Assembly (NCBI GenBank): GCA_903905065.1
Contig: CAIVEW010000092.1
Location: 1-64,000 of the forward strand
Reading direction: 5' to 3'
DNA length: 64,000 bases
DNA from: an uncultured Bacteroidota bacterium
GTDB lineage: Bacteria > Bacteroidota > Bacteroidia > Chitinophagales > Chitinophagaceae
Position 1 is the first letter of the stretch. Every line of letters begins with the position of its first letter. Shown here piece after piece: positions 16,179-59,308 of the stretch. The notes below the pieces were generated by a model. That model was not told the origin of the DNA. It worked only from the letters and a program-made list of their open reading frames with translations, and ran no database searches. The position numbers were made by a program, and so were the translations under genes.

Positions 16179-16202
16179 CCGCCCGGCCCCTGAAAGGGGG
16201 AG
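16179..16202. repeat. C/G palindrome family, copy after clpX stop
   Basis: CCGCCCGGCCCCTGAAAGGGGG begins directly after the clpX TAA. Core CCCCTGAAAGGGG can form a short hairpin. One of about ten related copies in the window. Confidence 0.75.
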
Positions 16203-16236
16203 TTTTTCTTATTGTTTAATCGAGAGAAAGTGTTTC

Positions 16237-16270
16237 GTTTTTTGAATTTTTACTTTTGAATTTTACTTTG
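16237..16270 (+). repeat. T-rich leader repeat before small ORF
   Basis: TTTTTTGAATTTTTACTTTTG followed by AATTTTACTTTGCA runs up to the ATG at 16273. It contains TACTTTTG (16251-16258), which fits the TAnnTTTG -7 box. Near-identical leaders precede several nuo genes. Confidence 0.65.
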
Positions 16271-16272
16271 CA

Positions 16273-16455
16273 ATGGACGATTTAGTACAGCAATTAAAAG
16301 ACAGAGCAGGGCTTACTGAAGACCAGGCCCTTAAGGCGCTGGATACTATGAAGGACTACCTGATGGGTAAGGTACCACCTATGTTCAGCGGTTTTGTGGA
16401 TAGCTTTTTTGCCAAGGCTGGCAAAACCACCGATGAAATAGACCCGCTAGCTTAG
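16273..16455 (+). CDS. Small conserved-type hypothetical protein, 60 residues
   Basis: MDDLVQQLKDRAGLTEDQAL starts a small helical protein that continues with a KALDTMKDYLMGKVPP helix and ends KTTDEIDPLA. The amphipathic helix pattern and its own T-rich leader with a possible -7 box support a real gene. The TEDQALKALDTM segment resembles the helix-turn of DUF2267/DUF2780-type small proteins, but the match is too short to name. Cytosolic; no function proposed. It ends in a 4-bp overlap with the stop of the convergent methyltransferase-like gene. Confidence 0.6.
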   Translation: MDDLVQQLKDRAGLTEDQALKALDTMKDYLMGKVPPMFSGFVDSFFAKAGKTTDEIDPLA

Positions 16456-16955
16456 TATTTCAAAACGAAGTGCTGCCGCTCTTTAAATTCTTCCTTAAAT
16501 AATAACAGGCCTATTCCAAACAGGTCTATACTCATGCGCACCTGCGGGTGTTTCATAGCAGCACTCCACGCCTTGCCGTGAGCAGCAGTTTTATGGATGC
16601 CGGTCATTATCACAACACCGTTACGACTCAACAAGTACAGATACTCATCCATCAGGCTCATCCATTTGGCTGGTTCTTTTTCGGGCAGCAATAAGATATC
16701 GACACCGTTTTCAGGAACGGCTGCGGCCGGCAGGTTTAAAACGTTCTTATAGTTGTAATAGGTAGCGATCCGGCAAATGAGGTTTTCATACTTCAGCGGA
16801 AGCCACGGGCATTTTACCAGGTAGCCTTTATTGAGCAGTTCTTTGTCGAGCAGCACATGCTCCACAAAATCATAGACAAACGGAGAGTGCGTGCCATGGC
16901 GGCCTTTGCCTTTCCATTTATATTGAATATAGGCTATGAAATTGTGAGCGGTCAT
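16452..16955 (-). CDS. Methyltransferase-related protein, apparently shortened
   Basis: 167 residues. The N-terminus (YKWKGKGRHGTHSPFVYDFVEHVLLD) is the hallmark start of a Bacteroidota class I SAM-dependent methyltransferase family that normally has about 230-250 residues with a GxGxG motif. Here that SAM-binding core is missing or replaced by a short link (NVLNLPAAAVPENGVDILLLPEKEP). The C-terminus (VRMSIDLFGIGLLLFKEEFKERQHFVLKY) again matches that family. I infer an internal deletion, so catalytic activity is doubtful. It lies 42 bp downstream of folA on the same strand. Confidence 0.65.
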   Translation of the reverse strand: MTAHNFIAYIQYKWKGKGRHGTHSPFVYDFVEHVLLDKELLNKGYLVKCPWLPLKYENLICRIATYYNYKNVLNLPAAAVPENGVDILLLPEKEPAKWMSLMDEYLYLLSRNGVVIMTGIHKTAAHGKAWSAAMKHPQVRMSIDLFGIGLLLFKEEFKERQHFVLKY

Positions 16956-16970
16956 TTAAGTAAATAGCAT

Positions 16971-16997
16971 GGGGAAAGCCCTTAGGGGTTTGGGGTT
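16971..16997. repeat. C/G palindrome family, copy after folA stop
   Basis: Read on the minus strand, AACCCCAAACCCCTAAGGGC follows the folA TAG with no gap. Same orientation relative to its gene as the other stop-adjacent copies. Confidence 0.75.
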
Positions 16998-17501: not shown

Positions 17502-17510
17502 TTTTTTTTA

Positions 17511-17545: not shown

Positions 17546-17551
17546 CGGGTA

Positions 17552-17559: not shown

Positions 17560-17609
17560 CAAATTATTTGACCCCAGTGCCGATCAGAAGGCGTAATTGT
17601 CTCATTCCC

Positions 17610-17643
17610 GGACTTACGACTCACGACTTATGACTTACGACTT
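17610..17643. repeat. TTACGACTCACGACT repeat family, thyA side
   Basis: GGACTTACGACTCACGACTT followed by ATGACTTACGACTTC. It starts right after the thyA TAG when read on the minus strand. A copy matching almost base for base is inside gltX at 28332-28372. Confidence 0.75.
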
Positions 17644-20450: not shown

Positions 20451-21617
20451 ATGGCTCAAAGCATACTGATAATAGATGATGAAAAGGCGATCCGCAAGGC
20501 GCTGGGTGAGATACTGACCTTCGAGGGGTTTGTGGTGGACGAGGCCACAGATGGTGCCGAAGGCGTCAAGAAGATCAAAGAGAATAATTACGACTGCATC
20601 CTTTGCGATATAAAGATGCCGAAGATGGATGGCATAGAAGTGCTGCAAGTAGCCCGGGAGGAGCGCCCGGATACTCCGTTCATAGTTATCTCGGGTCATG
20701 GGAACTTAGAAACAGCGGTAGATGCCGTAAAGAAGGGTGCCTATGACTACATCTCCAAGCCACCCGACCTGAACCGGTTGCTGATAACCGTGCGCAATGC
20801 AATGGATAAAAAGAGCCTGGTGTCTGAAACACGGCAACTGCGCAAGCGGATATCGCGCGGCAATGAAATGATAGGTGGCAGTGAGGCGATGGCGCAGATA
20901 CAAGAGACAATTAAAAAAGTGGCCCCAACTGACGCACGCGTTTTGGTGACCGGTGAAAACGGTGTGGGCAAAGAACTGGTAGCACGCCGTATTCATGAGC
21001 TGAGCAACCGCGCCAATGGCCCGCTGGTGGAGGTGAATTGCGCCGCTATACCTTCTGAACTGATCGAGAGTGAACTGTTCGGGCACGAGAAGGGCTCGTT
21101 CACTTCTGCCATAAAACAGCGTATCGGTAAGTTTGAACAGGCTAATGGCGGAACACTCTTCCTGGATGAGATAGGTGATATGAGCCATGATGCGCAGGCC
21201 AAAATGCTGCGCGCACTGCAAGAAGGCAAGATAACCCGCGTTGGTGGCGAAAAAGAAATAAAAGTAGATGTGCGCGTAATAGCTGCAACGAATAAGAACC
21301 TGATGGAAGAAGTAGATGCAAAAAAATTCCGCCTCGACTTATACCATCGCCTCAGCGTCATCCTGATAAAAGTGCCACCACTGAATGCAAGGAGGGAGGA
21401 CATACCTGAACTGATCAGCCACTTCATGAAGGAGATCAGCGAGGATTACAAACAGCAACCAAAAGAAGTGGAACCAGCGGCAGTCACCGCATTGCAGCAG
21501 TTCAACTGGACCGGAAACATCCGCGAGCTGAGAAATGTGGTGGAGCGCCTTATTATCCTTTCAGATAAAAAGATAACAAAAAAAGATGTGGAGACATATA
21601 TAACCCCCGGCCCCTAA
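20451..21617 (+). CDS. NtrC-family response regulator without DNA-binding domain
   Basis: 388 residues. Receiver domain 1-120: phospho-acceptor D53 in CILCDIKMPKMDG and K103 in YISKP. AAA+ sigma-54 interaction domain about 140-365: Walker A 168-175 (GENGVGKE), Walker B D239/E240 in GGTLFLDEIGDM, and WTGNIRELRNVVERL. The loop that contacts sigma-54 reads GSFTSA (215-220) instead of GAFTGA, keeping the key Phe and Thr. The usual C-terminal Fis-type helix-turn-helix (about 50-80 residues) is absent. The last four codons and the stop lie in a dispersed C/G palindrome, so the original C-terminus may have been cut. No kinase gene is adjacent. Confidence 0.93.
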   Translation: MAQSILIIDDEKAIRKALGEILTFEGFVVDEATDGAEGVKKIKENNYDCILCDIKMPKMDGIEVLQVAREERPDTPFIVISGHGNLETAVDAVKKGAYDYISKPPDLNRLLITVRNAMDKKSLVSETRQLRKRISRGNEMIGGSEAMAQIQETIKKVAPTDARVLVTGENGVGKELVARRIHELSNRANGPLVEVNCAAIPSELIESELFGHEKGSFTSAIKQRIGKFEQANGGTLFLDEIGDMSHDAQAKMLRALQEGKITRVGGEKEIKVDVRVIAATNKNLMEEVDAKKFRLDLYHRLSVILIKVPPLNARREDIPELISHFMKEISEDYKQQPKEVEPAAVTALQQFNWTGNIRELRNVVERLIILSDKKITKKDVETYITPGP

Positions 21618-21623
21618 AGGGGA
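21603..21623. repeat. C/G palindrome family, copy containing the regulator's stop codon
   Basis: ACCCCCGGCCCCTAAAGGGG: the TAA inside its centre is the stop codon of the NtrC-like gene. An almost perfect inverted copy lies at 21726-21747 beside the convergent VOC gene. Confidence 0.8.
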
Positions 21624-21725: not shown

Positions 21726-21747
21726 CTCCCCTTTAGGGGTCGGGGGT
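21726..21747. repeat. C/G palindrome family, copy near VOC gene stop
   Basis: CTCCCCTTTAGGGGTCGGGG, 14 nt beyond the stop of the VOC gene on the minus strand. Its reverse complement matches the copy at 21603 with a single mismatch over 21 bases. Confidence 0.75.
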
Positions 21748-21761
21748 TTCAGGCCAAAGGG

Positions 21762-22142
21762 TTAGTCAATCGCTTCCCACAGTTCTATTTTGTTCCCTTC
21801 GGGATCCATGATGTGCGCAAACTTGCCGTATTCAGAGACCTCCATTTCACCTATCTGCTCCACACCCTCCTTCTTTAATTCTCCCAGCAGCCACTCCAGG
21901 TCCTCTACACGGTAGTTGATCATGAACTCTCTTGCAGAAGGCCCAAAGTATTTAGTATCTGCCGGAAAGGTACTCCATACGGTGGATCCCTTTTTATCCG
22001 GATCGTCAGCGTGACGCCAGTCGAATGTAGCTCCCCATTGTTCCGCGTTCAGGCCCAGGTGGGTATTGTACCAGTCGCGGGTGGCAGCAGGGTCGGCGCT
22101 TTTAAAGAAAATACCTCCGATGTTTGTAACTCTTTTTGGCAT
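21762..22142 (-). CDS. VOC superfamily protein (glyoxalase/bleomycin-resistance fold)
   Basis: 126 residues, one VOC module. The N-terminus NIGGIFFKSADPAATRDWYNTHLGLN is the typical first beta-alpha unit with the DPAATRDWY helix; the C-terminus EYGKFAHIMDPEGNKIELWEA holds the DPxGNxIEL strand and metal-ligand Glu. Members include glyoxalase I, dioxygenases and antibiotic-binding proteins, and the sequence does not decide among them. It lies downstream of the tandem small exported genes but beyond their terminator. Confidence 0.88.
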   Translation of the reverse strand: MPKRVTNIGGIFFKSADPAATRDWYNTHLGLNAEQWGATFDWRHADDPDKKGSTVWSTFPADTKYFGPSAREFMINYRVEDLEWLLGELKKEGVEQIGEMEVSEYGKFAHIMDPEGNKIELWEAID

Positions 22143-43311: not shown

Positions 43312-43312
43312 A

Positions 43313-43335
43313 CCCCAAACCCCTGAAGGGGCTTT
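43313..43335. repeat. C/G palindrome family, copy before radA start
   Basis: CCCCAAACCCCTGAAGGGGC on the plus strand, one base upstream of the radA ATG on the minus strand. The CCCCAAACCCC end faces the gene, as in the stop-adjacent copies. Confidence 0.75.
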
Positions 43336-46383: not shown

Positions 46384-46400
46384 AGCATGGTGGTCCGTTT

Positions 46401-46408
46401 CAAATATA
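46401..46408 (-). promoter_or_regulatory. Bacteroidota -7 box TATATTTG upstream of lipoprotein gene
   Basis: Minus-strand TATATTTG, 17 nt before the ATG at 46383. No -33 TTTG seen. Confidence 0.45.
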
Positions 46409-46487
46409 CCTTAAATGCGGTGTTCCATTAAACCTTTAACGTTTATATTTATCAGATACTTCTTTACTTTGCGGTCAAATAAAAAAG

Positions 46488-47354: not shown

Positions 47355-47394
47355 TATTTCTAAGGTATAGTTCTTATTTATTTGTTAAACGGCG

Positions 47395-47425
47395 TTTGCA
47401 ATTTCGGTGTATAACTGTAACTTTG
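47395..47425 (+). promoter_or_regulatory. nuo operon promoter TTTG-N19-TAACTTTG
   Basis: TTTG at 47395-47398, exactly 19 nt, then TAACTTTG at 47418-47425: a perfect match to the Bacteroidota consensus. Transcription should start near 47432, giving a leader of about 33 nt with GGGGGA before nuoA. Confidence 0.8.
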
Positions 47426-47464
47426 TATATTCCGTAACACGCTTTCTAAGTAGGGGGACCAAAT

Positions 47465-47857: not shown

Positions 47858-47880
47858 ACCCCCAACCCCCTAAAGGGGGC
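47858..47880. repeat. C/G palindrome family, copy after nuoA stop
   Basis: ACCCCCAACCCCCTAAAGGG, directly after the nuoA TAA. Confidence 0.8.
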
Positions 47881-47910
47881 TTATTTATGTTGAGTAAGGA
47901 GCATGAGTGT

Positions 47911-47935
47911 GTTTACTTTTAATTTTTAATTTTTT
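47911..47935 (+). repeat. T-rich leader before nuoB
   Basis: GTTTACTTTTAATTTTTAAT followed by TTTTT runs up to the nuoB ATG. Confidence 0.65.
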
Positions 47936-48499: not shown

Positions 48500-48522
48500 C
48501 CCCCCGGCCCCCTGAAGGGGGA
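48500..48522. repeat. C/G palindrome family, copy after nuoB stop
   Basis: CCCCCCGGCCCCCTGAAGGG follows the nuoB TAA without a gap. Confidence 0.8.
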
Positions 48523-48596
48523 GTGCCGGAACCTAAAACATCAGGCTTTGGTTATCAATCGCGCATTGTTTTAAAAAAAAAGTAACAAAATAACAT

Positions 48597-48623
48597 GGGG
48601 AAGCCCCTTTAGGGGTTTGGGGT
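48597..48623. repeat. C/G palindrome family, copy before nuoC start
   Basis: GGGGAAGCCCCTTTAGGGGT then TTGGGGT, 2 nt from the nuoC ATG. Inverted relative to the stop-adjacent copies, so its CCCCAAACCCC end again faces the gene. Confidence 0.78.
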
Positions 48624-48625
48624 TT

Positions 48626-49123: not shown

Positions 49124-49134
49124 GGCTTGTTTAT

Positions 49135-49386
49135 ATGGAAGACCTGGTATTATATTTTTTCAAGGATAGGCCTGATGTTATCAGTGCTTATCACAGATAC
49201 CGGATAGTGGCTGTGGATGTGCTGCTGTTAGTGGCAGTATGCATCGGGCTGCTGGCGGGTAATGAGAAGATCAGGTCTTTTTCATTGGGTTTAGCAGCAG
49301 GTGTTTTATTGGTGAAGACAGGGGAGAGCATTGGCAGATTAAGAAACAGCGGCAGTAAAAAGCTACCTGCCGGGAATGAGTGCTAA
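49135..49386 (+). CDS. Small membrane protein inserted between nuoC and nuoD
   Basis: 83 residues: a hydrophilic start (MEDLVLYFFKDRPDVISAYH), then two hydrophobic stretches (IVAVDVLLLVAVCIGLLAG and FSLGLAAGVLLVKTG) with a short turn between, ending in a basic tail. It resembles no standard complex I subunit. It starts 11 bp after nuoC and ends 18 bp before nuoD, so it is co-translated with them. A role as small accessory or assembly membrane protein is a guess from position. Confidence 0.7.
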   Translation: MEDLVLYFFKDRPDVISAYHRYRIVAVDVLLLVAVCIGLLAGNEKIRSFSLGLAAGVLLVKTGESIGRLRNSGSKKLPAGNEC

Positions 49387-49404
49387 AGAGTAAAAAACGG
49401 AGAA

Positions 49405-50658
49405 ATGTCAGAGCAACTAACGCATACACAACATCATATTAAGCTTTCTGAAGAGTCGCTCCAGAAGCAGACAACTACGCTTAACCTGGGCCCTACGCAC
49501 CCGGCCACTCACGGTGTTTTTCAGAACATAATGGAAATTGATGGGGAGCGTGTACTGGAAACGGTGCCCACCATCGGCTATATACATCGTGCGTTCGAAA
49601 AGATCGCAGAGCGCCGCCCATACTACCAGATCACCCCGCTTACAGACAGGCTTAACTATTGTTCGTCGCCCATAAACAACATGGGCTGGCATATGACCAT
49701 AGAAAAACTGCTTGGACTGAAACTGCCCAAGCGTGTAGAATATCTGCGCGTCATCATAATGGAGTTATCCAGAATTGCTGACCACCTGGTTTGTAATTCA
49801 GTTATCGCTGTGGACACAGGTGCGCTTACTCCATTTACTTATGTATTCCAGTACCGGGAAAAAATTTACGAAATATTTGAAGAGATATGCGGCTCCCGCC
49901 TTACGACCAACATTGGCAGGGTAGGTGGATTTGAGCGCAACTTTACGCCTGCGTCGTTCACTAAGCTGCATGATTTCATGAAAACCTTCCCGAAGGTGCT
50001 GAAGGAATTCGAATCGCTGCTGAACCGGAACCGCGTATTCATGGACCGCTGCATAGGCGCCGGACCAATCAGCGCAGAAAAGGCACTGAATTATGGCTTT
50101 ACCGGTCCTAATCTTCGTGCTACAGGAGTTGATTATGATGTGCGCGTAGCCATGCCCTATTCTTCATACGAAGATTTTGATTTTAAGATACCCGTAGGTA
50201 CGGTTGGCGACGTTTATGACCGCTTTATGGTGCGCAACGGCGAGATGTGGGAAAGTGTGAGCATTATCCACCAGGCGATAGAGAAAATAGAAAAAATAGA
50301 AAAAGAGTTTCCGGACCAGAAAGAGGTATTTTATGCCAAGGAAGCAGACCATTTCCACATTCCCGCCAAGGAAGATGTATACACAAAAATGGAAGCGCTT
50401 ATCTGGCATTTCAAAATAATAATGGGGGAGATAGATGCACCAGCAGGCGAGGTTTACCACTCGGTGGAAGGCGGCAACGGAGAGGTAGGATATTATCTGA
50501 TCAGTGATGGTGGCAGAAGCCCTTATCGTCTGCATTTCCGCAGGCCGTGTTTTATTTATTACCAGGCATACCCGGAAATGGTAGAAGGTGGGTTACTCAG
50601 TGATGCGATCATTACCCTGAGTAGCTTGAATGTGATCGCGGGAGAATTGGATGCTTAA
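49405..50658 (+). CDS. nuoD: NADH-quinone oxidoreductase subunit D
   Basis: 417 residues. NuoD is the 49-kDa subunit that forms the quinone pocket. Start LNLGPTHPATHGVFQNIMEIDGE contains the conserved GPxHPxxHG loop; MELSRIADHLVCNSVIAVDTGA and the Gly-Gly region RVGGFERNF are also typical. Length fits the stand-alone form. A palindrome copy follows the stop codon. A plausible upstream box is absent, so it depends on the operon transcript. Confidence 0.97.
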   Translation: MSEQLTHTQHHIKLSEESLQKQTTTLNLGPTHPATHGVFQNIMEIDGERVLETVPTIGYIHRAFEKIAERRPYYQITPLTDRLNYCSSPINNMGWHMTIEKLLGLKLPKRVEYLRVIIMELSRIADHLVCNSVIAVDTGALTPFTYVFQYREKIYEIFEEICGSRLTTNIGRVGGFERNFTPASFTKLHDFMKTFPKVLKEFESLLNRNRVFMDRCIGAGPISAEKALNYGFTGPNLRATGVDYDVRVAMPYSSYEDFDFKIPVGTVGDVYDRFMVRNGEMWESVSIIHQAIEKIEKIEKEFPDQKEVFYAKEADHFHIPAKEDVYTKMEALIWHFKIIMGEIDAPAGEVYHSVEGGNGEVGYYLISDGGRSPYRLHFRRPCFIYYQAYPEMVEGGLLSDAIITLSSLNVIAGELDA

Positions 50659-50679
50659 ACACCAGCCCTAAAGGGGAAC
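50659..50679. repeat. C/G palindrome family, shortened copy after nuoD stop
   Basis: ACACCAGCCCTAAAGGGGAA directly after the nuoD TAA; the left arm is degenerate. Confidence 0.65.
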
Positions 50680-50775
50680 CATGGATTTGGCAGCTGTTCA
50701 ATATTTGCGAGGTAGTAAACTAATTAAGCAGCGAAGAATAACATTTGGAATTAGAGGTTCTATAAAAAGCATTAA

Positions 50776-51273
50776 ATGAGTATTCGTTTTAGTGAAGAAA
50801 AATTAAAAGAGGTAAAAGAGCTGATCTCGCACTACCCGGAAGGGAAGCAGAAGAGCGCGCTGATACCGTTACTGCACATGGCGCAGGACGAGAATGGCGG
50901 CTGGCTGGACGCACCTGCGATGGATTATGTAGCGGAGATATTGCAGATACTGCCAATAGAAGTATACGAGGTAGCTACCTTTTACAGTATGTTCAATACA
51001 AAACCTGTGGGCAAACACCTCCTTGAGGTATGCCGCACCGGGCCCTGCATGCTGAATGGCAGCGACCAGATAATAGACTACATAAAAGAAAAACTGGGTA
51101 TCGGTGAAGGTGAAACAACTACGGATGGCTTGTTTACATTAAAGCCAGCTGAGTGCCTCGGCGCGTGTGGATATGCACCAATGATGCAGCTGGGCAAGAC
51201 ATACCGGGAGCACCTGACAAAAGAAAAAATAGATAAACTGATAGACGAATTGAGGGGGCAGGCCAAAAACTAA
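50776..51273 (+). CDS. nuoE: NADH-quinone oxidoreductase subunit E
   Basis: 165 residues. NuoE carries the 2Fe-2S cluster N1a of the NADH dehydrogenase module. Four Cys ligands: CRTGPCMLNG (two) and CLGACGYAPMMQLG (two). The N-terminal helical part begins YPEGKQKSALIPLLHMAQDENGGW, as in most NuoE. It binds NuoF, encoded two genes downstream after an SRPBCC gene. Confidence 0.96.
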   Translation: MSIRFSEEKLKEVKELISHYPEGKQKSALIPLLHMAQDENGGWLDAPAMDYVAEILQILPIEVYEVATFYSMFNTKPVGKHLLEVCRTGPCMLNGSDQIIDYIKEKLGIGEGETTTDGLFTLKPAECLGACGYAPMMQLGKTYREHLTKEKIDKLIDELRGQAKN

Positions 51274-51277
51274 ACCT

Positions 51278-51682
51278 ATGGTTTTCGATCTTGCGCTTGA
51301 GTTTATTTTATCGGGAAAACCGGAAAGAGTGATGCAACTGCTCACAGATCCGATACTGATAAGGAAGTGGAGTGGCGGAAAAGCGGTGCTGGAAAAGAAA
51401 GAAGGTGGACAGTTCCAGATGTTTGATGGATGGGTGAAGGGTACTGTGTTGAAGGCAACTGAAAATGAGCTGGCCTATACCTGGAAAACAAGTGACTGGC
51501 CGGAAGAAACAAAACCAACTGAAGTTCATTATTTACTGAAGGAAGACGAAGCTGGAACAAAGGTGATATTGCATCACACGGGTTTTGAAGACGAAGCAGA
51601 AATGAAGAGTCACCGGGCCGGATGGACAGATTATTTTTTTGACCCGATGGAAGATTTTATTTTGATCATAGATAAAAGTTGA
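51278..51682 (+). CDS. SRPBCC/AHSA1-type domain protein inserted between nuoE and nuoF
   Basis: 134 residues, one START-like fold. Pattern: FDLALEFILSGKPERVMQLLTDPILIRKWSGGKAVLEKKEGG at the start, FQMFDGWVKGTVLKATENELAYTWKTSDWP in the middle and HTGFEDEAEMKSHRAGWTDYFF at the end, all as in AHSA1/Aha1-C-like proteins that bind hydrophobic ligands or Hsp90. It starts 4 bp after the nuoE stop, so it is tightly coupled. It has no known complex I role; the position suggests assembly or cofactor handling, which is only an inference. Confidence 0.85.
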   Translation: MVFDLALEFILSGKPERVMQLLTDPILIRKWSGGKAVLEKKEGGQFQMFDGWVKGTVLKATENELAYTWKTSDWPEETKPTEVHYLLKEDEAGTKVILHHTGFEDEAEMKSHRAGWTDYFFDPMEDFILIIDKS

Positions 51683-51704
51683 ACCACTTCCCTTAAAGGG
51701 GAGG
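51683..51704. repeat. C/G palindrome family, copy after SRPBCC gene stop
   Basis: ACCACTTCCCTTAAAGGGGA directly after the TGA. Confidence 0.65.
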
Positions 51705-51773
51705 AATAATTTAGGAAAGAGAACAGAATACGGAAACGAATAATTATTAAGCTCAAAAGAATATCAAAACGCA

Positions 51774-51808
51774 TTTTTTGACTTTTGACTTTTGATTTTT
51801 GACTTTGA
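51774..51808 (+). repeat. T-rich leader before nuoF
   Basis: TTTTTTGACTTTTGACTTTT then GATTTTTGACTTT, ending just before the ATG at 51813. Confidence 0.65.
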
Positions 51809-51812
51809 AAAA

Positions 51813-53168
51813 ATGGGCGTAAAACTATTATTAGAGCACGACAAGGTAGAAGGCATTCGTTATTACGATGCCTACCGTAAGCATGGCGGCTACCGTGCGG
51901 CTGAGAAGGCATTTAAAATGTCACCGGCTGATATCGTGGAAGAAGTGAAGAAAAGCGGTCTCCGTGGCCGCGGTGGTGCGGGCTTCCCTACCGGTATGAA
52001 ATGGAGCTTCCTGGCAAAGCCCGAGGGTGTGCCACGCCACCTGGTGTGCAATGCCGATGAGTCAGAGCCCGGCACCTTCAAGGACCGTTACCTGATGGAA
52101 TTTCATCCACATCTTTTTATTGAAGGATTGTTGATCAGTAGTTTCGCTCTAGGCAGCAATGCTACCTATGTGTATATACGCGGTGAGTATGCCTGGATAC
52201 CGGAGATACTGGAGCAGGCTATAGCAGAAGCGAAAAACAACGGCTGGCTGGGTAAAAATATTCTTGGTTCCGGCTTTGATTGCGAGATATATGTGCATCG
52301 TGGCGCCGGGGCCTATATCTGTGGCGAAGAAACGGCACTAATAGAATCACTGGAAGGCAAGCGCGGCAACCCGCGCATGAAGCCGCCATTCCCTGCGATA
52401 CAGGGGGTTTGGATGCGCCCTACAGTGGTGAACAACGTAGAGACGATAGCGGCTGTAGTGCCCATAATAAATATCGGTGGCGATGAATACGCCAAGATCG
52501 GTGTCGGCAAATCTACAGGTACCAAGCTACTGTCCGTATGCGGTAATGTAAAGAACCAGGGCGTTTACGAAATAGACATGACCATTTCTGTAGAGGAGTT
52601 TATCTACAGCGATGAATACTGCGGAGGCATACCTAATGGCAAAAAGCTGAAGGCTTGCATCCCTGGCGGATCATCTGTACCAATAATACCTGCTAATCTG
52701 TTGCTGAAAACAGCAAAAGGCGAAACGCGGTATATGAACTATGAGAGACTTTCTGATGGTGGATTTGTATCTGGCAGTATGATGGGTTCTGGTGGTTTTA
52801 TAGTGTTGGATGAAGATCAATGCGTGGTTCGCCACACTATGACCCTCGCCCGTTTTTACAATCACGAAAGTTGCGGACAATGCAGCCCCTGCCGCGAAGG
52901 TACCGGCTGGATGTACAAAATACTGAAGAATATAGAATACGGAAAGGGAAAGATGAGCGACATCGACCTGCTTTGGGACATTCAGCGCAAGATCGAGGGC
53001 AACACAATATGCCCGCTGGGAGATGCTGCTGCATGGCCGATAGCTGCTGCTATCCGCCATTTCCGGGATGAATTTGAATGGCATGTATTGAACCCCGATG
53101 AATCGCAGAAACGTAATTACGGACTGGCACATTATGCCGACCCTATTCATGTAGCTGCAACAGCGTAA
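51813..53168 (+). CDS. nuoF: NADH-quinone oxidoreductase subunit F
   Basis: 451 residues from ATG 51813; an earlier in-frame ATG at 51792 lies within the T-rich leader. NuoF binds NADH, FMN and the 4Fe-4S cluster N3. Motifs: GLRGRGGAGFPTGMKW (FMN/NADH glycine-rich loop), GAYICGEETALIESLEGKRG and the cluster ligands in ESCGQCSPCREGTGWM with the distal Cys in GNTICPLGDAA. It is the entry point for electrons, paired with NuoE. Confidence 0.97.
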   Translation: MGVKLLLEHDKVEGIRYYDAYRKHGGYRAAEKAFKMSPADIVEEVKKSGLRGRGGAGFPTGMKWSFLAKPEGVPRHLVCNADESEPGTFKDRYLMEFHPHLFIEGLLISSFALGSNATYVYIRGEYAWIPEILEQAIAEAKNNGWLGKNILGSGFDCEIYVHRGAGAYICGEETALIESLEGKRGNPRMKPPFPAIQGVWMRPTVVNNVETIAAVVPIINIGGDEYAKIGVGKSTGTKLLSVCGNVKNQGVYEIDMTISVEEFIYSDEYCGGIPNGKKLKACIPGGSSVPIIPANLLLKTAKGETRYMNYERLSDGGFVSGSMMGSGGFIVLDEDQCVVRHTMTLARFYNHESCGQCSPCREGTGWMYKILKNIEYGKGKMSDIDLLWDIQRKIEGNTICPLGDAAAWPIAAAIRHFRDEFEWHVLNPDESQKRNYGLAHYADPIHVAATA

Positions 53169-53200
53169 AATTGTATTAAGTAATAAAGGAGAAACGCAGG

Positions 53201-53225
53201 TTTTGACTTTTAATTTTTGACTTTG
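53201..53225 (+). repeat. T-rich leader before nuoG
   Basis: TTTTGACTTTTAATTTTTGA then CTTTG ends 1 nt before the nuoG ATG. Confidence 0.65.
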
Positions 53226-53226
53226 T

Positions 53227-54309
53227 ATGTCAGAACAACCAAAATTTAAAGTAACCATTGATAACATCACTGTAGAGGTGCCAGCCGGTACTACTATATT
53301 GAATGCCGCGCGAATGATAGGTGGAGAGGTTACCCCACCAGCTATGTGTTATTACAGCAAGCTGAAAGACAGTGGTGGTAAATGCCGCACCTGTCTGGTA
53401 GAGGTAAGCAAGGGTTCTGAAAAAGACCCGCGCCCTATGCCAAAGCTGGTAGCTAGCTGCCGCACTACTGTTATGGATGGTATGGAAGTGAAAAACATCA
53501 CTTCACCTAAAGTTATCGACGCGCGCAAAGGAATCGTTGAATTTTTATTACTCAACCACCCGCTCGATTGCCCGGTATGTGACCAGGCCGGGGAGTGCGA
53601 TCTTCAGAACCTTAGCTACGAACATGGTGCTGAAGCCACCCGCTACGAGTTCAAGCGCCGCACTTTTGAAAAAGAAGATATCGGCCCATACATTTCTCTG
53701 CACATGACGCGCTGCATAATGTGCTTCCGTTGTGTGTTTACTGCCGACCAGCTTACCGATAAGCGCGAACACGGTATACTGGAGCGTGGTGACCATGCAC
53801 AGATCAGTACCATGCTCAATAAGTCATTGGATCACGACTTTATTGGTAATGTGATAGACGTTTGCCCGGTGGGTGCACTCACTGATAAAACATTCCGCTT
53901 CAAGAACCGCGTGTGGTTTACAAAACCGGTTGATGCGCACCGCGACTGCCCTACCTGTAGCGGCAAGGTGCGCCTGTGGATGCGCGGCGAAGAAGTGTTT
54001 CGCGTTACGGCACGCAAAGACCAATGGGGAGAGGTGGAAGAATTTATCTGTAATGATTGCCGTTTCCACAAAAAGGAAACAAAAGACTGGGTGATAGAAG
54101 GCCCTTCCGTAATTGCGCGGAGCAGCGTTATAGCGCAGGGGCATTATGTAGGTACATTAAAAACACCGGTAGTCATTGACAAAGTCATTGGCAAGCAACC
54201 TAAATTTTTGATGGACATACATGATGAAAGCGATGTGAACAGGCCGGAAGTTCATCTTTCAGAGATAGAAGGCCCGGCACATTCGGATGATTTTAAAGTC
54301 AAGCCATAA
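53227..54309 (+). CDS. nuoG: NADH-quinone oxidoreductase subunit G, short form
   Basis: 360 residues, about half or less of E. coli NuoG (about 900). N-terminal 2Fe-2S domain with Cys in MCYYSKLKDSGGKCRTC; then a His/Cys cluster region CPVCDQAGECDLQNLSYEHG and 4Fe-4S ligands CIMCFRC with VCPVGAL. A further four-Cys unit DCPTCSGKVRLW ... ICNDCRF begins the molybdopterin-type domain, but the rest of that large domain is absent. It conducts electrons from NuoF to NuoI. Shortened NuoG proteins are known in Bacteroidota. A nucleotidyltransferase gene follows at 54338. Confidence 0.93.
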   Translation: MSEQPKFKVTIDNITVEVPAGTTILNAARMIGGEVTPPAMCYYSKLKDSGGKCRTCLVEVSKGSEKDPRPMPKLVASCRTTVMDGMEVKNITSPKVIDARKGIVEFLLLNHPLDCPVCDQAGECDLQNLSYEHGAEATRYEFKRRTFEKEDIGPYISLHMTRCIMCFRCVFTADQLTDKREHGILERGDHAQISTMLNKSLDHDFIGNVIDVCPVGALTDKTFRFKNRVWFTKPVDAHRDCPTCSGKVRLWMRGEEVFRVTARKDQWGEVEEFICNDCRFHKKETKDWVIEGPSVIARSSVIAQGHYVGTLKTPVVIDKVIGKQPKFLMDIHDESDVNRPEVHLSEIEGPAHSDDFKVKP

Positions 54310-54337
54310 AAAAAGTCCAGGTTAGGAATTGAATAAA

Positions 54338-54643
54338 ATGATTTTGACCACTGAACATATAAAACAAACTGTAGCCGAGTTTTTTAGAAAAAAGCCGGTT
54401 AAAAAAGTGTGGTTGTTTGGTTCGTATGCGCGTGGTGATGCTGACGAAAGTAGTGACGTAGATGTGTTGGTTGATATAGATCATACAATTCCGGTTGGTT
54501 GGGATTATTTTTGCTGGAAAGATGAGCTTGCTCATTTGTTAAAAAAGAAAGTTGATGTTGTGAGCTACGGCTGGGAGAACAAAAAAATAAAACCTTTTAT
54601 AGATAAGGATAAATATATTATTTATGAAAGACGCAATATCTGA
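54338..54643 (+). CDS. MNT-type nucleotidyltransferase (MntA-like antitoxin)
   Basis: 101 residues from ATG 54338 (a TTG at 54329 is in frame). The minimal nucleotidyltransferase signature is complete: VWLFGSYARGDADESSDVDV, i.e. GS followed by paired Asp, with the third acidic residue in KKVDVVSYG. In MntA-HepT modules this protein adds AMP to the HEPN RNase and so neutralises it. The partner HEPN gene overlaps its 3' end by 20 bp but is broken. The module sits inside the nuo operon between nuoG and nuoH and is AT-richer than them, a sign of insertion. Confidence 0.85.
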   Translation: MILTTEHIKQTVAEFFRKKPVKKVWLFGSYARGDADESSDVDVLVDIDHTIPVGWDYFCWKDELAHLLKKKVDVVSYGWENKKIKPFIDKDKYIIYERRNI

Positions 54644-54770
54644 TGGAGCTCGAGTGGAACACATTATTGAATGTATAGCTGAAATTGAGAGAGCATTAGA
54701 AGGGGCGAATTATGAAACGTTTATCAGCGATCACGTTTTGCGTATAGCTGTTGTAACAATAAAACTTGAT
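54624..54770 (+). pseudogene. Frameshifted remnant of HEPN (HepT/DUF86) toxin gene
   Basis: The first 32 codons (MKDAISDGARVEHIIECIAE and on to LEGANYET) match the start of DUF86 HEPN proteins. At a run of four T (about 54719-54722) the frame shifts and soon stops. In the next frame the homology continues (FISDHVLRIAVV) for about 12 residues and then ends too. The RNase motif R-x4-6-H is missing. It overlaps the MNT gene by 20 bp, as in intact modules. I infer an inactivated toxin. Confidence 0.7.
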
Positions 54771-54799
54771 TAAACGATAAATTTTTAACTAACTAAAAC

Positions 54800-54807
54800 T
54801 ACTTTTG
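54800..54807 (+). promoter_or_regulatory. Bacteroidota -7 box TACTTTTG before nuoH
   Basis: TACTTTTG ends 7 nt before the nuoH ATG. It suggests an internal promoter after the MNT/HEPN insertion. Confidence 0.45.
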
Positions 54808-54814
54808 CGCCACT

Positions 54815-55894
54815 ATGCTGTTACTTCAGATTGATACAGCGCTGATTATAGAAAAAGTCATCCTCATCTCGGTAATATTGATGGGGTCGTTGGGCATTGC
54901 TATGTATGCCACTTGGGGTGAGCGTAAAGTGGCTGCTGTAATGCAGGATCGTATTGGTCCGAACCGCGCGGGCCCGTTCGGGCTGCTTCAGCCATTGGCA
55001 GACGGTTTAAAGTTGTTTTTTAAAGAGGAGATCATACCAGACCGTTCCACAAGATTTATTTTCATTCTAGGTCCGTGCCTGGCTATGCTTACCGCATTGA
55101 TGACCAGTGCTATAGTGCCGTGGGGTCCTGATTACGTAACCGATAGCGGCCGTGTCATTTCCTTCCAGGTAGCGGATATAAGTATCGGTATACTGTTTGT
55201 TTTTGGTGTGGTTAGCCTTGGTGTGTATGGTGTTATGCTGGGTGGCTGGGCGTCAAATAATAAGTTCTCACTGCTTAGCAGCATCCGTGCTGCCTCCCAG
55301 GCGATCTCTTACGAGCTGGCAATGGGTATCAGTCTCATCGCGCTGCTCATGCTCACGGGTTCACTTAGCCTTCGTGAAATAGTGACGCAGCAGCATGGTT
55401 TCTGGAATGACGGCTACTTTTCATGGAACTTTTTTAAACAACCAGTAGGTTTCGTGATTTTCCTTACCTGCGCTTTCGCAGAACTGAACAGAGCTCCTTT
55501 CGACCTTCCGGAATGTGAAAGTGAATTGAACATGGGTTATCACCAGGAGTATTCTTCTATGAAACTTGGTTTTTACCTGTTTGCGGAATACATCAATATG
55601 TTTGTAAGCTCCGCGATCATTGTTACGCTGTTCTTTGGCGGGTACAACTTCCCCTTCATGGACCAGGTGCAACATGCTACTCTGGCGCACCCTATCCTGT
55701 TTACCATCATTTGTATATTAGCACTGTTGACCAAGGTTGTGCTTATGATCCTGTTTTTTATGTTTGTCAGGTGGACGCTTCCACGCTTCCGCTACGACCA
55801 GCTTATGAAATTGGGTTGGCGCTCATTGATACCGATAGCGTTGGTAAATATGCTGGTAACTGGGGTGTTGATATTGTGGGTGTTTAAGAAATGA
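54815..55894 (+). CDS. nuoH: NADH-quinone oxidoreductase subunit H
   Basis: 359 residues, about eight membrane helices. NuoH forms the quinone channel wall between the peripheral arm and the membrane arm. Signatures: TWGERKVAAVMQDRIGPNRAGPFGLLQPLADGLKLFFKE in the first loop (invariant ERKxxxxxQxRxGPNR), FAELNRAPFDLPECESELNMGYHQEYSSM with the proton-channel glutamates, and WTLPRFRYDQLMKLGWRSLIP near the end. Full length and intact. Confidence 0.97.
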   Translation: MLLLQIDTALIIEKVILISVILMGSLGIAMYATWGERKVAAVMQDRIGPNRAGPFGLLQPLADGLKLFFKEEIIPDRSTRFIFILGPCLAMLTALMTSAIVPWGPDYVTDSGRVISFQVADISIGILFVFGVVSLGVYGVMLGGWASNNKFSLLSSIRAASQAISYELAMGISLIALLMLTGSLSLREIVTQQHGFWNDGYFSWNFFKQPVGFVIFLTCAFAELNRAPFDLPECESELNMGYHQEYSSMKLGFYLFAEYINMFVSSAIIVTLFFGGYNFPFMDQVQHATLAHPILFTIICILALLTKVVLMILFFMFVRWTLPRFRYDQLMKLGWRSLIPIALVNMLVTGVLILWVFKK

Positions 55895-55921
55895 TTATAG
55901 AGGTTTTGGAAAAAGAGAATA

Positions 55922-56431
55922 ATGCAGAAACTAACTAACAGAGCAGTGCAGATAGATCGCAGCCCGATGACTTTCGGGGAGCGCATCTACCTGCCTTCGC
56001 TGGCCAAGGGCCTCGGGATTACGCTCGGGCACATATTTAAGAAAAAGGCGACAACCAGCTATCCGGAGGAGAAGCGTCCGTTTAGCCCTGTGTTCCGTGG
56101 CCTGCATATATTGAACCGTGATGAGAACGGAGCAGAGCGTTGCACCGCCTGTGGGCTGTGTGCACTGGCCTGCCCGGCCGAAGCGATAACCATGGAAGCG
56201 GCAGAGCGCAAACCTGGTGAAGAGCATCTGTACCGTGAAGAGAAATATGCGGCAAAATATGAGATCAATATGCTGCGTTGCATTTTCTGCGGATATTGCG
56301 AAGAAGCCTGCCCTAAGGACGCAATATATCTTACAGAGACGATAATGCCCTCGAACTATACGCGCGCCAGTTTCATTTATAAAAAAGACGACCTGCTCAT
56401 TCCGGACACTAAAAAACAGGGGAGCAAATAA
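55922..56431 (+). CDS. nuoI: NADH-quinone oxidoreductase subunit I
   Basis: 169 residues. NuoI carries clusters N6a and N6b in two 4Fe-4S ferredoxin motifs: CTACGLCALACPAEA and CIFCGYCEEACPKDA, each with C-x2-C-x2-C-x3-C. An N-terminal amphipathic region (LTNRAVQIDRSPMTFGERIYLPSLAKGLGITLGHIFKKK) anchors it on NuoH. It ends 2 bp before nuoJ. Confidence 0.97.
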   Translation: MQKLTNRAVQIDRSPMTFGERIYLPSLAKGLGITLGHIFKKKATTSYPEEKRPFSPVFRGLHILNRDENGAERCTACGLCALACPAEAITMEAAERKPGEEHLYREEKYAAKYEINMLRCIFCGYCEEACPKDAIYLTETIMPSNYTRASFIYKKDDLLIPDTKKQGSK

Positions 56432-56433
56432 GT

Positions 56434-56979
56434 ATGGACATATACGATATATTATTTTGGATTCTGTCTGCTTTGGCCGTTGGCTGTGCGCTGGGTGTTA
56501 TCCTTAGCCGCAACCCGGTTAATAGCGTAATGTTCCTCATCGTTACTTTTTTCGCAATATCGGGCCACTATGTATTGATGAATGCACAGTTCCTGGCAAT
56601 AGTGAATATTATAGTTTATGCCGGCGCCATAATGGTACTGTTCCTTTTTGTGATCATGCTCATGAACCTCAACGCCGATGTGGAACCGCAAAAAGGCCAA
56701 ATGGTGCAACTGGCCGGCGTTATTTCGGGTGGCGTTCTGTTTCTCGTGATATTGGCGTCCATAAAAACAGCTAAAACAGAATACATGGATAAGGCTTCGA
56801 CTGATATTGGACTAATTACCAATCTCGGCAAAGTGTTGTTCACAAAATATGTGTTGCCTTTTGAGATAAGCAGTGTACTCTTTCTTAGTGCAATGATAGG
56901 AGCAGTAGTTATAGGTAAGAAGGAAGACGCAAAGCCGCCCTCTAAAGCTGACGAAGCGGAAATGAAACAATTTTTATAA
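56434..56979 (+). CDS. nuoJ: NADH-quinone oxidoreductase subunit J
   Basis: 181 residues with five membrane helices. NuoJ links NuoH to the antiporter arm and has a pi-bulge helix whose rotation couples proton pumping. Signatures: SRNPVNSVMFLIVTFFAISGHYVLMNAQFLAIVNIIVYAGAIMVLFLFVIMLMNL, with VYAGAIMVLFLFVIML as the conserved core. Intact. Confidence 0.95.
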   Translation: MDIYDILFWILSALAVGCALGVILSRNPVNSVMFLIVTFFAISGHYVLMNAQFLAIVNIIVYAGAIMVLFLFVIMLMNLNADVEPQKGQMVQLAGVISGGVLFLVILASIKTAKTEYMDKASTDIGLITNLGKVLFTKYVLPFEISSVLFLSAMIGAVVIGKKEDAKPPSKADEAEMKQFL

Positions 56980-57026
56980 ACTAAAGACCAAATTTATTGC
57001 ACCTTAGTTTATGCGGTAATACTGGG

Positions 57027-57060
57027 ATTTTTACTTTTAATTTTACTTTTTTATTTTTTA
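57027..57060 (+). repeat. T-rich leader before nuoK
   Basis: ATTTTTACTTTTAATTTTAC followed by TTTTTTATTTTTTA ends 2 nt before the nuoK ATG. Confidence 0.65.
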
Positions 57061-57062
57061 AG

Positions 57063-57368
57063 ATGCCGGTAAATTCAACACATTATTTGTTCTTAAGCCT
57101 CCTGTTATTCTCTATCGGGATAATGGGTGCACTGATGCGCCGCAATGCCATCATCATATTTATGTGCATAGAACTTATGCTCAATGCCGTGAATTTACTG
57201 TTAGTGGCTTTCTCAAAGATCTATGGCGATGCCGATGCACAACTATTTGTTTTTTTTATAATGGTGGTAGCTGCTGCTGAGGTAGCGGTTGGACTGGCGA
57301 TAATAGTGATGATGTACCGCAAAGTACATTCGGTAGACATTAATATATTGAACAGGCTGAAACACTAA
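57063..57368 (+). CDS. nuoK: NADH-quinone oxidoreductase subunit K
   Basis: 101 residues from ATG 57063; the longer frame upstream translates the T-rich leader and is rejected. Three helices with the conserved proton-path Glu in MCIELMLNAVNLLLVAFS and in AAEVAVGLAIIVMMYR. NuoK is MrpC-like, between NuoJ and NuoN. Full length. Confidence 0.96.
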   Translation: MPVNSTHYLFLSLLLFSIGIMGALMRRNAIIIFMCIELMLNAVNLLLVAFSKIYGDADAQLFVFFIMVVAAAEVAVGLAIIVMMYRKVHSVDINILNRLKH

Positions 57369-57386
57369 AATAATTTTAAAATTAAA

Positions 57387-59285
57387 ATGGGGAATTTTTC
57401 TCAACTCGTCTACTTAGTGCCATTGTTTCCGCTGATCGGGTTTTTGATCAACGGTTTGTTTTGGAAAAGGATGCCTAAAAACCTTGGTGGTGTTATTGGC
57501 ACGCTTGCAATACTCTGCTCGTTCGTAGTTTCACTCGGCATTTTCTTTGAAGTAAAGGATCCTGCTTTTCACGGGCCAGTGATTGTTCGGTTATTTGACT
57601 TCATACAGTCTGGTAAACTTTACATTCCCTTTTCGTTCCAGGTCGATGCACTTTCGGCCTTGTTCCTGCTTATTATTACCGGGGTAGGGTTCCTCATACA
57701 TGTTTATTCCACGTCTTATATGCATCACGATGAGGGAATGGTAAAATACTTTGCTTATCTCAATCTCTTCGTTTTCTCCATGCTTTTACTGGTGCTTGGT
57801 GCAAACTATCTTATCATGTTTATAGGCTGGGAAGGCGTCGGTTTGTGCTCGTACCTGCTTATAGGTTTCTGGTTTAAAAACCGGGATTATACCAATGCCG
57901 CGAAAAAAGCATTTGTAATGAACCGCATCGGAGACCTTGGCTTCCTTGTGGGCATGTTACTGATATTGTTCAATTTCGGCACTCTTTCGTACCAGGAATT
58001 CTTCGGACAGGTGCACAGCGGGCAGGCAATAGTTACTACCAGCACATACAACTGGATAGCCTTGTGCCTGTTTATTGGCGCTACCGGCAAAAGCGCCCAG
58101 ATCCCTTTATATACCTGGTTGCCCGATGCCATGGCTGGTCCCACCCCTGTGTCAGCACTGATACACGCGGCCACTATGGTTACGGCTGGCATTTATATGA
58201 TAGCGCGTAGCGGAGCATTATACAGCCTCACACCAATGATCCTGCACGTAGTGGCTATCATTGGCCTGGCCACAGCTATCCTGGCAGCGACCATTGCCAT
58301 AAAACAATACGATATCAAAAAAGTGCTTGCCTATTCCACTGTCAGCCAGCTTGGCTTTATGTTCCTTGCATTAGGCGTAGGTGCATATACTACTGCTGTG
58401 TTCCATGTCATGACACATGCGTTCTTCAAGGCGTTGTTGTTCCTTGGTTCAGGTAGTGTTATACATGCGATGGGTGGCGAACAGGATATTCGAAAGATGG
58501 GCGGGCTAGGTAAACACATGCGCATTACGCAGGCTACTTTTCTTATAGGCTGCCTGGCTATATCCGGTATCCCCGGTTTTTCCGGCTTCTTTTCGAAAGA
58601 TGCCATACTGACCGATGCTTGCGCCCATGACCCGATATTGTACTATCTGGGCATCGCGGCCGCAATGATGACGGCATTTTACATGTTTCGTTTGTACTTT
58701 CTAACATTCAATGGCAGTTTCCGTGGCACTGAAGACCAGCGGCATCACTTGCATGAGAGCCCTTACGCAATGACCATACCGCTGATGATACTTGCCGTTC
58801 TTTCCATTATCGGTGGGTATGTAGGTATTCCCGAAATACTCGGCGGCCATAATCTTATTGATTCGTACCTCGCCAGTGTAGTTACTAATTTCGGCGAGCA
58901 CCATCTCGCTGAATCTACAGAATGGATGTTGATGTCCGTATCGGTAGTTGCTGCTGTAATAATGATCCTATTAGCTTATTCCGTAAACCGGAAACCTAAT
59001 TTTGTCGAAAACAAAGGTTTTGCGAAGCTACTCGAAAACAAATGGTACGTGGATGAGATCTATGACGCGATAATTGTGAGGCCAATAGAAGCGCTCTCTA
59101 ACTTGCTCGATAAATTTGCCGAGAAAAAAGGAATCGATGGAGTTGTAAATGGCGTTGGCAAAACAGTAAAGTGGGGTGGCGACCGTTTGAGGTTACTACA
59201 AAGCGGGCAGGTAGGTTTTTACATTTTTATTATGGTGCTCGGCATAGTGGTGTTGTTTACACTTAGCTTTTTTTGGATAAAGTAA
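57387..59285 (+). CDS. nuoL: NADH-quinone oxidoreductase subunit L
   Basis: 632 residues. Distal antiporter-like pump subunit with about 16 helices. Signatures: FIGWEGVGLCSYLLIGFWF with the key Glu, GATGKSAQIPLYTWLPDAMAGPTPVSALIHAATMVTAGIYM (Lys and Pro helix breaks), KQYDIKKVLAYSTVSQLGFMF and HVMTHAFFKALLFLGSGSVIHAMGGEQDIRKMGG. The C-terminal lateral helix and anchor helix are present (WGGDRLRLLQSGQVGFYIFIMVLG). A palindrome copy abuts the stop codon. Confidence 0.97.
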   Translation: MGNFSQLVYLVPLFPLIGFLINGLFWKRMPKNLGGVIGTLAILCSFVVSLGIFFEVKDPAFHGPVIVRLFDFIQSGKLYIPFSFQVDALSALFLLIITGVGFLIHVYSTSYMHHDEGMVKYFAYLNLFVFSMLLLVLGANYLIMFIGWEGVGLCSYLLIGFWFKNRDYTNAAKKAFVMNRIGDLGFLVGMLLILFNFGTLSYQEFFGQVHSGQAIVTTSTYNWIALCLFIGATGKSAQIPLYTWLPDAMAGPTPVSALIHAATMVTAGIYMIARSGALYSLTPMILHVVAIIGLATAILAATIAIKQYDIKKVLAYSTVSQLGFMFLALGVGAYTTAVFHVMTHAFFKALLFLGSGSVIHAMGGEQDIRKMGGLGKHMRITQATFLIGCLAISGIPGFSGFFSKDAILTDACAHDPILYYLGIAAAMMTAFYMFRLYFLTFNGSFRGTEDQRHHLHESPYAMTIPLMILAVLSIIGGYVGIPEILGGHNLIDSYLASVVTNFGEHHLAESTEWMLMSVSVVAAVIMILLAYSVNRKPNFVENKGFAKLLENKWYVDEIYDAIIVRPIEALSNLLDKFAEKKGIDGVVNGVGKTVKWGGDRLRLLQSGQVGFYIFIMVLGIVVLFTLSFFWIK

Positions 59286-59308
59286 AACCCCCTGCCCCTA
59301 AAGGAGAG
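59286..59308. repeat. C/G palindrome family, copy after nuoL stop
   Basis: AACCCCCTGCCCCTAAAGGA, directly after the nuoL TAA. Confidence 0.75.

Follow-up and report, generated by a model that had tools for sequence, protein, structure and literature searches.

A family of short palindromes abutting stop and start codons in an uncultured member of the Chitinophagaceae

The locus and its palindromes

The first 64,000 nucleotides of contig CAIVEW010000092.1 (hereafter the window), from the assembly GCA_903905065.1 of an uncultured Bacteroidota bacterium of the family Chitinophagaceae, contain clpX, folA, radA and several nuo genes, at whose edges copies of a short C/G-rich palindrome are found. 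The names clpX, folA, nuoA and nuoC rest on domain matches, nuoB, nuoD and nuoE on operon order, and radA, nuoL and SRPBCC, the last for an open reading frame (ORF) within the nuo region, on an initial annotation of the stretch. With up to one mismatch allowed, the palindrome core CCCCTRAAGGGG occurs 11 times in the window, six times exactly, as compared with a mean of 0.36 and a maximum of 2 in 100 shuffled sequences. Read from head to tail, a copy has the layout (A)AACCCC-NNN-CCCC-TRAA-GGGG-tail.

The initial annotation named seven copies at stop codons (clpX, folA, nuoA, nuoB, nuoD, SRPBCC and nuoL), and all of them are present on base-by-base reading (Table 1). It also placed copies 1-2 nt from the radA and nuoC starts; the distance is indeed 1 nt at radA, but 3 nt at nuoC. 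Its statement that the CCCC-NN-CCCC end faces the gene in every copy is accounted for, in paired copies, by the outward heads of inverted pairs; the match at 33826 has one mismatch and lacks the CCCC head.

Table 1. Palindrome copies and AT-rich filler; positions are those of the window unless a locus is named
Feature	Position	Strand	Remarks
Copy right after clpX stop	16179..16200	+	Stop at 16178; TAA-CCGCCCGGCCCCTGAAAGGGGG; base-by-base reading; clpX domains
Degenerate copy after folA stop	16971..16997	-	Stop 16998; TAG-AACCCCAAACCCCTAAGGG...; head scan, R1 match 16976-16995, DHFR domain
Left member of inverted pair	21602..21622	+	ORF 20451-21617 ends on the copy's internal TAA (d = -14)
Right member of inverted pair	21728..21748	-	15 nt past stop of minus-strand gene 21762-22142
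Copy 1 nt ahead of radA start	43312..43334	+	Minus-strand gene ending 43311; CAT-A-CCCC at 43312; R1 match
Copy after nuoA stop	47858..47882	+	Stop 47857; TAA-ACCCCCAACCCCCTAAAGGGGGCTT; nuoA domain
Copy after nuoB stop	48500..48529	+	Stop 48499; TAA-CCCCCCGGCCCCCTGAAGGGGGAGTGCCGG; stem lengthened by CCGG/CCGG
Copy ahead of nuoC start	48601..48625	-	mRNA sense AAGCCCC-UUUA-GGGGUUU-GGGG-UUU-AUG; GGGGTTT-ATG at 48626; nuoC domain
Degenerate copy after nuoD stop	50659..50676	+	Stop 50658; intact version at same place in G022
Degenerate copy after SRPBCC stop	51683..51701	+	ORF 51278-51682
Copy after nuoL stop	59286..59306	+	Stop 59285; ORF 57387-59285
AT-rich filler	47909-47938		
AT-rich filler	51775-51804		
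AT-rich filler	53200-53229		
AT-rich filler	59386-59415		
AT-rich filler	60906-60935		
AT-rich filler	nuoB-nuoC gaps of L129, L136, L139, L145		

Family size and anatomy

The genome to which the window belongs (4.68 Mb in 113 contigs) contains 91 exact CCCCTRAAGGGG cores, 44 on the plus and 47 on the minus strand, and none of the reversed control. Stretches around all exact cores were fetched (57 after merging; 355,751 bases), and a lenient search of them gave 106 copies; leaving aside 4 whose head could not be read and 2 with no called gene on the side of the head, 100 were scored. By eye, the spacer is coupled to the tail: AAA occurs with CTT, CGG or CAG with AGYGC, and TGA or TGT with AACCA. 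The copies lie mostly in tandem gaps (64), with 27 in convergent and 8 in divergent ones (n=99); the deficit in divergent gaps relative to sampled gaps was not significant (p = 0.10).

Where neighbouring copies are less than 300 bp apart, 23 of 25 pairs are inverted with heads outward, and the other two are one ++ and one -- (no -+). The spacing of the inverted pairs (86-189 bp) and their variable interior recall a miniature inverted-repeat transposable element, with terminal inverted repeats ACCCC...GGGGT and moved by a DDE transposase. However, many copies are single and paired ends frequently differ in type; no target duplication was recognised by eye, and no transposase-like ORF was seen between distant outward heads in the five stretches viewed by eye, whose ORFs were not searched against families. 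Such an element is thus an improbable explanation of the family.

Exact cores are present in 26 of 35 genomes of the same genus, with up to 115 per genome; of the 21 genus genomes compared, the two most alike share 88% identity across nuoB and nuoD. When named genomes of other Bacteroidota were scanned for AACCCCNNNCCCCTRAAGGGG, at least 115 stretches were returned, including ones from Paludibacter, Tannerella, Terrimonas, Pedobacter, Emticicia, Spirosoma and Saprospiraceae. Among the matches listed from these taxa, a peak on the stop side is seen, 31 of 71 heads facing a 3' end lying 0-4 nt past the stop, with the window-trained gene caller applied without retraining.

Distance to stop and start codons

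Genes were called by our own codon-usage caller trained on the window, whose starts are less certain than its stops. Heads facing the 3' end of a gene (n=63) lie 0 nt past the stop in 17 cases, 1 nt in 12, 2 nt in 3, 3 nt in 4 and 4 nt in one, which places 37/63 at 0-4 nt; a further 13/63 have negative distances, the called gene ending within the element or beyond its head. Heads facing a 5' end (n=37) are found 1 nt (six), 3 nt (five), 5 nt (two) or 7 nt (one) from the start, so that 14/37 lie within 7 nt; one of the others is negative and the rest are at least 13 nt away.

Under a null model in which copies fall uniformly within their gap (gaps below 60 nt and distances below -2 excluded), 2.1 of the 3'-facing heads are expected at 0-4 nt and 36 of 49 are seen there; for the 5'-facing heads, 1.4 are expected and 11 of 36 seen. 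The stem begins 4-13 nt past the stop in 15 of 33 family copies but in 1 of 31 other GC hairpins from the same gaps (1.6 expected). Random intergenic spread, which the initial annotation had argued would not give such an alignment with codons, is ruled out by the codon distances of this genome-wide check, by abutment far above the uniform null and by the failure of other GC hairpins to crowd at stops.

A second explanation is that operons are so compact that insertions land between stop and start since nothing else is free. The elements do fill whole intercistronic gaps, and several repeat-less relatives have nuoD-nuoE gaps of 18-53 nt. However, abutment is also seen where there is room: in gaps of at least 150 nt, 17/28 of the 3'-facing heads lie at 0-4 nt (0.67 expected), as do 6/22 of the 5'-facing ones (0.47 expected), and other repeat-less relatives have nuoD-nuoE gaps of 64-212 nt, those of G010, G017, G014 and G027 looking alignable at their 3' part, yet in G000, G022, G025 and G028 the repeat in this gap begins 0-1 nt past the stop. 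Compactness as the full explanation is contradicted by abutment in long gaps, and we consider it the least probable of the alternatives.

Stops abutted by a copy are TAA in 34/37 cases versus 162/296 over all called genes, which suggests that the stop codon may be completed by A's belonging to the element; at starts the junction reads CAT-A or CAT-AAA in 10 of 14. Between -1 and 30 nt from the codon, CTT-tail types account for 21/27 heads near starts but 17/45 near stops (p = 0.0014), as counted among the matches listed.

A GC hairpin directly after a stop, with more than a quarter of the copies in convergent gaps (27/99), may also bring to mind intrinsic transcription terminators, and the nuoA copy meets the terminator rule of our scan. 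The 91 copies listed nevertheless have no T run as a rule, and copies occur inside the nuo operon and ahead of starts. Terminator-like sites over 46400-62400 are at the level of shuffled sequence (18 vs 16.1). Two of these sites overlap family copies, one at 47866-47879 in sense and the other at 59288-59307 antisense to nuoL. The suggestion of a terminator in the initial annotation is therefore not supported, and this role appears very unlikely for the family. The covariance models of Rfam 15 gave no match in the window at gathering score and, in eight other loci of the genome, two sub-threshold leader matches, both in L061.

Hairpins of the nuo operon

Across the genus, elements frequently occupy the whole intercistronic gap between stop and start in the nuo operon, and which element it is differs between species. 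The nuo proteins end in similar residues whether or not a copy is present, and the native stop has thus stayed where it was. The copy after nuoB shows a stem swap, CGG/CCG in G000 against CAG/CTG in G026.

On manual reading, 19 of 32 genus genomes have a hairpin of the form AAGUCCC-N4-GGGAUUU-AGGG at the orthologous position ahead of nuoD, 1-3 nt from the AUG in 13 of them and 10-21 nt in 6 (G018, G019, G021, G025, G027 and G028). A locus from a distant metagenome-assembled genome (L188) has the hairpin 8 nt ahead of nuoB. Hand-trimmed nuoC-D and nuoB-C sequences were aligned in 18 rows and 22 columns; of the 19 genomes with the nuoD hairpin, G019 and G020 (longer stems), G025, G008 and G018 (duplicates) and G034 were excluded, and so were further nuoB-nuoC rows, from G026, G028, G018, G031 and G006. 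In this alignment 92.9% of cells pair, 9 cells are changed on both sides as against 3.6 in shuffles, and the covariation score is 0.225 as against 0.145 (0/500 shuffles as high for either measure). Compensatory changes at orthologous sites, as expected of a cis-acting mRNA hairpin, are thus seen in the stem, although two of five measures do not exceed shuffles (see below).

A covariance model built from the alignment gave 76 matches at E <=5 in the window's own genome, many of which are repeat copies. The model was also run on 13 relatives, scoring the best 150 first-look candidates per genome, a limit under which weak matches could escape. For G004, G011, G013 and G016 a single match was returned, the nuoD site, and G005 and G007 have the nuoD match and one weak match. 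No match was found in G012 or G034; G023 and G032 have 2 and 4 elsewhere, and G014, G017 and G006 have 11, 30 and 15, respectively. The exact core is absent from G004, G011, G013, G005 and G007 and occurs once in G016, and the nuoD hairpin therefore also stands where the exact core is absent. It would be either an old insertion that was co-opted or a functional element that predates the repeat's spread.

Predicted folding and pairing across gaps

Copies ahead of starts are predicted to be more stable in the sense of the mRNA, at -10.0 (nuoC) and -9.9 kcal/mol (radA) as against -6.4 on the other strand, because the AAA/CTT coupling yields a G-U pair when read in one sense but an A-C mismatch when read in the opposite one. 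No such sense advantage is seen for the copy that follows the nuoB stop (-17.1 vs -16.7 antisense).

The nuoB-nuoC gap of the window, with a copy at each edge, is predicted to fold end to end, with a minimum free energy of -46.5 kcal/mol and a z of -2.3 (3/200 shuffles as good). An intercistronic RNA clamp may be imagined, in which the C-rich head after a stop would pair with the G-rich head before the next start, the spacer would be folded out and the terminating ribosome would meet the next AUG. If true, the clamp would serve to re-initiate translation in a phylum reported to have ribosomes that ignore Shine-Dalgarno sequences (PMC9976891). Fifteen stop/start pairs of copies exist, and of the 13 modelled (two in longer gaps being left out) eight are predicted to form 8 or more end-to-end pairs. 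However, the antisense strand also reaches at least 8 such pairs in 7/13, copies also lie in convergent and divergent gaps, and many are single. The clamp is considered unlikely because inverted repeats fold end to end on either strand.

Relationship to REP elements

The family consists of a short extragenic palindrome in many dispersed copies, with inverted dimers of constant orientation, as described for repetitive extragenic palindromic (REP) sequences, bacterial interspersed mosaic elements (BIMEs) and REP doublets forming hairpins (REPINs). No GTAG/GGAG or CGTC tag was found at the foot of the hairpin, which reads AACCCC-NNN. The lack of a GTAG/CGTC tag does not by itself exclude REPs, given that untagged REPs are described for subclass 2.6 (PMC6006769).

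GTAG- or CGTC-tagged REPs of Proteobacteria and others are characterized as dispersed short palindromes that form heterodimers and dimers with variable spacers and often lie less than 20 bp from the 3' ends of genes (PMC3733652). The present family is like them in all these respects and in that its end may supply a stop; GTAG REPs are likewise stated to lend a TAG stop to flanking ORFs (PMC3733652). Compared with the same description (PMC3733652), it differs in its foot of (A)AACCCC plus spacer, in copies that also abut starts, in a like hairpin holding an orthologous place ahead of nuoD, and in the failure to find a cognate REP-associated tyrosine transposase (RAYT).

A serious possibility is that the copies are purely REPs or REPINs, mobilised as DNA through a Y1 (HUH) transposase, and that RNA effects, if any, are side effects. 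The (A)AACCCC end would join after a T, restoring TAA or sparing ATG, and other insertions would be lost; the TAA excess at abutting stops and the CAT-A and CAT-AAA start junctions agree with this, as does the prevalence of inverted, head-out pairs among close neighbours. Copies also turn over like their gaps in a comparison with the relative G026, set out below. Y1 genes are widespread in the genus (33 of 35 genomes), and a Y1 match of at least 70 bits is found in 19/21 genomes with at least 10 exact cores versus 6/14 others (Fisher p = 0.006; ranks p = 0.065; kinship not corrected). Two of six groups of short Y1 genes (C and E) adjoin AACCCC-GAA/AAA-GGGGTT palindromes which by eye are loosely core-like, so that kinship is possible, and one Y1 gene of the window's genome (L033) has, roughly 200 nt upstream, a CCCC-GAA-GGGG palindrome accompanied by a head-like ACCCCGGCCC.

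Several results stand against this rival. Among 34 loci with 32 Y1 genes, the exact core is found in L089 alone, about 1.3 kb away, and a Y1 gene of the window's genome (L068) has a degenerate family copy some 2.8 kb away. The flanks read by eye, those of 38 out of 46 short genes (six groups) and of 5 longer genes, carry other palindromes, and no cognate RAYT flanked by the repeat was found among the Y1 genes read in the own genome and the genus. G009 has 8 copies and no Y1 match, the window's genome and G010 are copy-rich without a match of 70 bits, and G005, G007, G023, G032 and G034 have strong Y1 matches and no exact core. In addition, target choice alone explains neither the abutment in gaps of at least 150 nt nor the compensatory changes. 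Even so, the rival stays close behind the reading that we prefer below.

The longer Y1 genes carry motifs given for subclass 2.6 (PMC6006769), a subclass of TnpA-REP (RAYT group 5) described with atypical structures in Bacteroidetes. The family shares the phylum with these, and motif-bearing genes, assigned by eye, are present in the window's genome (L032 and L033); the palindromes beside five such genes differ in sequence from the present family, e.g. CTCGTTTGCAACGAG. A text search for CCCCTAAAGGGG in the open-licence papers covered retrieved nothing related, and no closer match than the REP/RAYT papers surfaced there.

Ribosome stalling at stop-adjacent REPs of Escherichia coli is reportedly the work of Liang and co-workers. 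E. coli REPs within 15 nt of the stop codon are stated to stall ribosomes (PMC12306157). The copies described here resemble these in placing a hairpin right after the stop, within reach of the terminating ribosome, and differ in sequence, in phylum and in having a before-start half.

Interpretation

Our tentatively preferred interpretation, which we hold at somewhat less than even confidence, is a REP-like family for which we know no mobiliser and of which some copies would be kept as mRNA hairpins at the edges of cistrons. The position, orientation and base pairing of the copies are as described above; that selection keeps some of them is suggested by the covariation and the orthologous placement seen in the nuo operon. 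Written as mRNA, a copy after a stop reads stop-A(0-3)-CCCC-NNN-CCCC-URAA-GGGG, and a copy before a start reads as the reverse complement of this, AAGCCCC-UUYA-GGGGUUU-GGGG-U(1-3)-AUG. Such hairpins would most likely govern the start, the end or the survival of a cistron within a polycistronic mRNA, the candidate routes being restart of translation at the following start codon or protection of the message once it has been cut between cistrons. Edge adjacency would then result from tolerated insertion together with retention of helpful copies.

Bacteroidia ribosomes are reported not to recognise Shine-Dalgarno sequences (PMC9976891). Hairpins placed on start codons are therefore a testable candidate for start selection or restart, and what marks internal start codons in Bacteroidota operons is, given that report (PMC9976891), a real question. 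A hairpin class that sits on stops and starts, with compensatory changes in nuo, offers a concrete candidate that can be deleted, and since its adjacency to edges is measurable to the base, selection and insertion preference can be told apart.

The following results weigh against this interpretation. The nuoA after-stop copy folds better antisense (-12.9 vs -9.7 kcal/mol in sense), and, given their composition, individual hairpins are of ordinary stability (z -0.2 to -1.8). Outside the genus there is little adjacency to starts, with 4/42 5'-facing heads at 0-4 nt among the listed matches from other Bacteroidota. The window's genome is itself among the 13 without the hairpin ahead of nuoD. The rows of the covariation alignment were picked by hand, and two of its five measures do not exceed shuffles: 2 pairs are changed on both sides (99/500 shuffles as high) and there are 5 further pair types (500/500).

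In the comparison with G026, to which the third codon positions of nuoB-D are 61.9% identical, the copies gave no clear family-wide sign of being better conserved than their gaps. Of 236 own gaps, 56 could be matched, with a copy by the strict pattern in neither genome in 41, in both in 7, in the own genome only in 5 and in G026 only in 3. The copies matched in both are identical at 19/19, 39/39, 18/18, 19/20, 32/39, 33/49 and 14/20 positions, values that are conditional on a pattern match in both genomes. Without this condition, the copies in 12 own gaps with a strict copy are 207/328 (63%) identical to G026 and the rest of those gaps 1750/2582 (68%); in 10 G026 gaps with a copy, the values are 190/224 (85%) and 1320/1834 (72%), some gaps in these counts containing ORFs that the gene caller left out. 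Copies are thus mostly either retained nearly unchanged or lost, with no family-wide excess on the own side. Separately, the gaps at about 18356 of contig C25 and about 5265 of C56 in the own genome are 75/77 and 164/168 identical to G026, far above third codon positions.

The proposals of the initial annotation fared unevenly. That the palindrome is mobile is plausible from dispersed near-identical copies, inverted pairs and presence or absence between relatives, but neither a mobiliser nor, in the relatives compared, a cleanly readable empty site came to light. That copies are kept at reading-frame edges is supported for the nuoB, nuoC and nuoD places and not for the family as a whole.

Other elements in the same gaps

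A second, AT-rich filler occupies intercistronic gaps with the same outward polarity, approximately (TTTTGAC)n ahead of starts and (AAAAGTC)n after stops (Table 1). Heptamer-like GACTTAC repeats occur in two gaps of the window (17606-17642 and 28335-28371), and an 82-nt tandem pair with GGTCA palindromes lies at 62356-62513.

In the nuoA-nuoB gaps of L129, L131, L133, L138, L139 and L264, a hairpin is followed by a strong Shine-Dalgarno-like GGAGGG or GGGAGGG ahead of nuoB, which is odd for a phylum reported to ignore such sequences. Some gaps contain further ORFs. The long nuoA-nuoB gaps of L132 (922-1206) and L137 (924-1283) hold a 23S_rRNA_IVP (PF05635) ORF between AT repeats that abut the stop and the start, and 23S IVP genes have four matches in the own genome. 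A Uma2 (PF05685) ORF is found in the nuoC-nuoD gaps of some relatives (L143:1881-2459 and, on the minus strand, L147:2006-2584).

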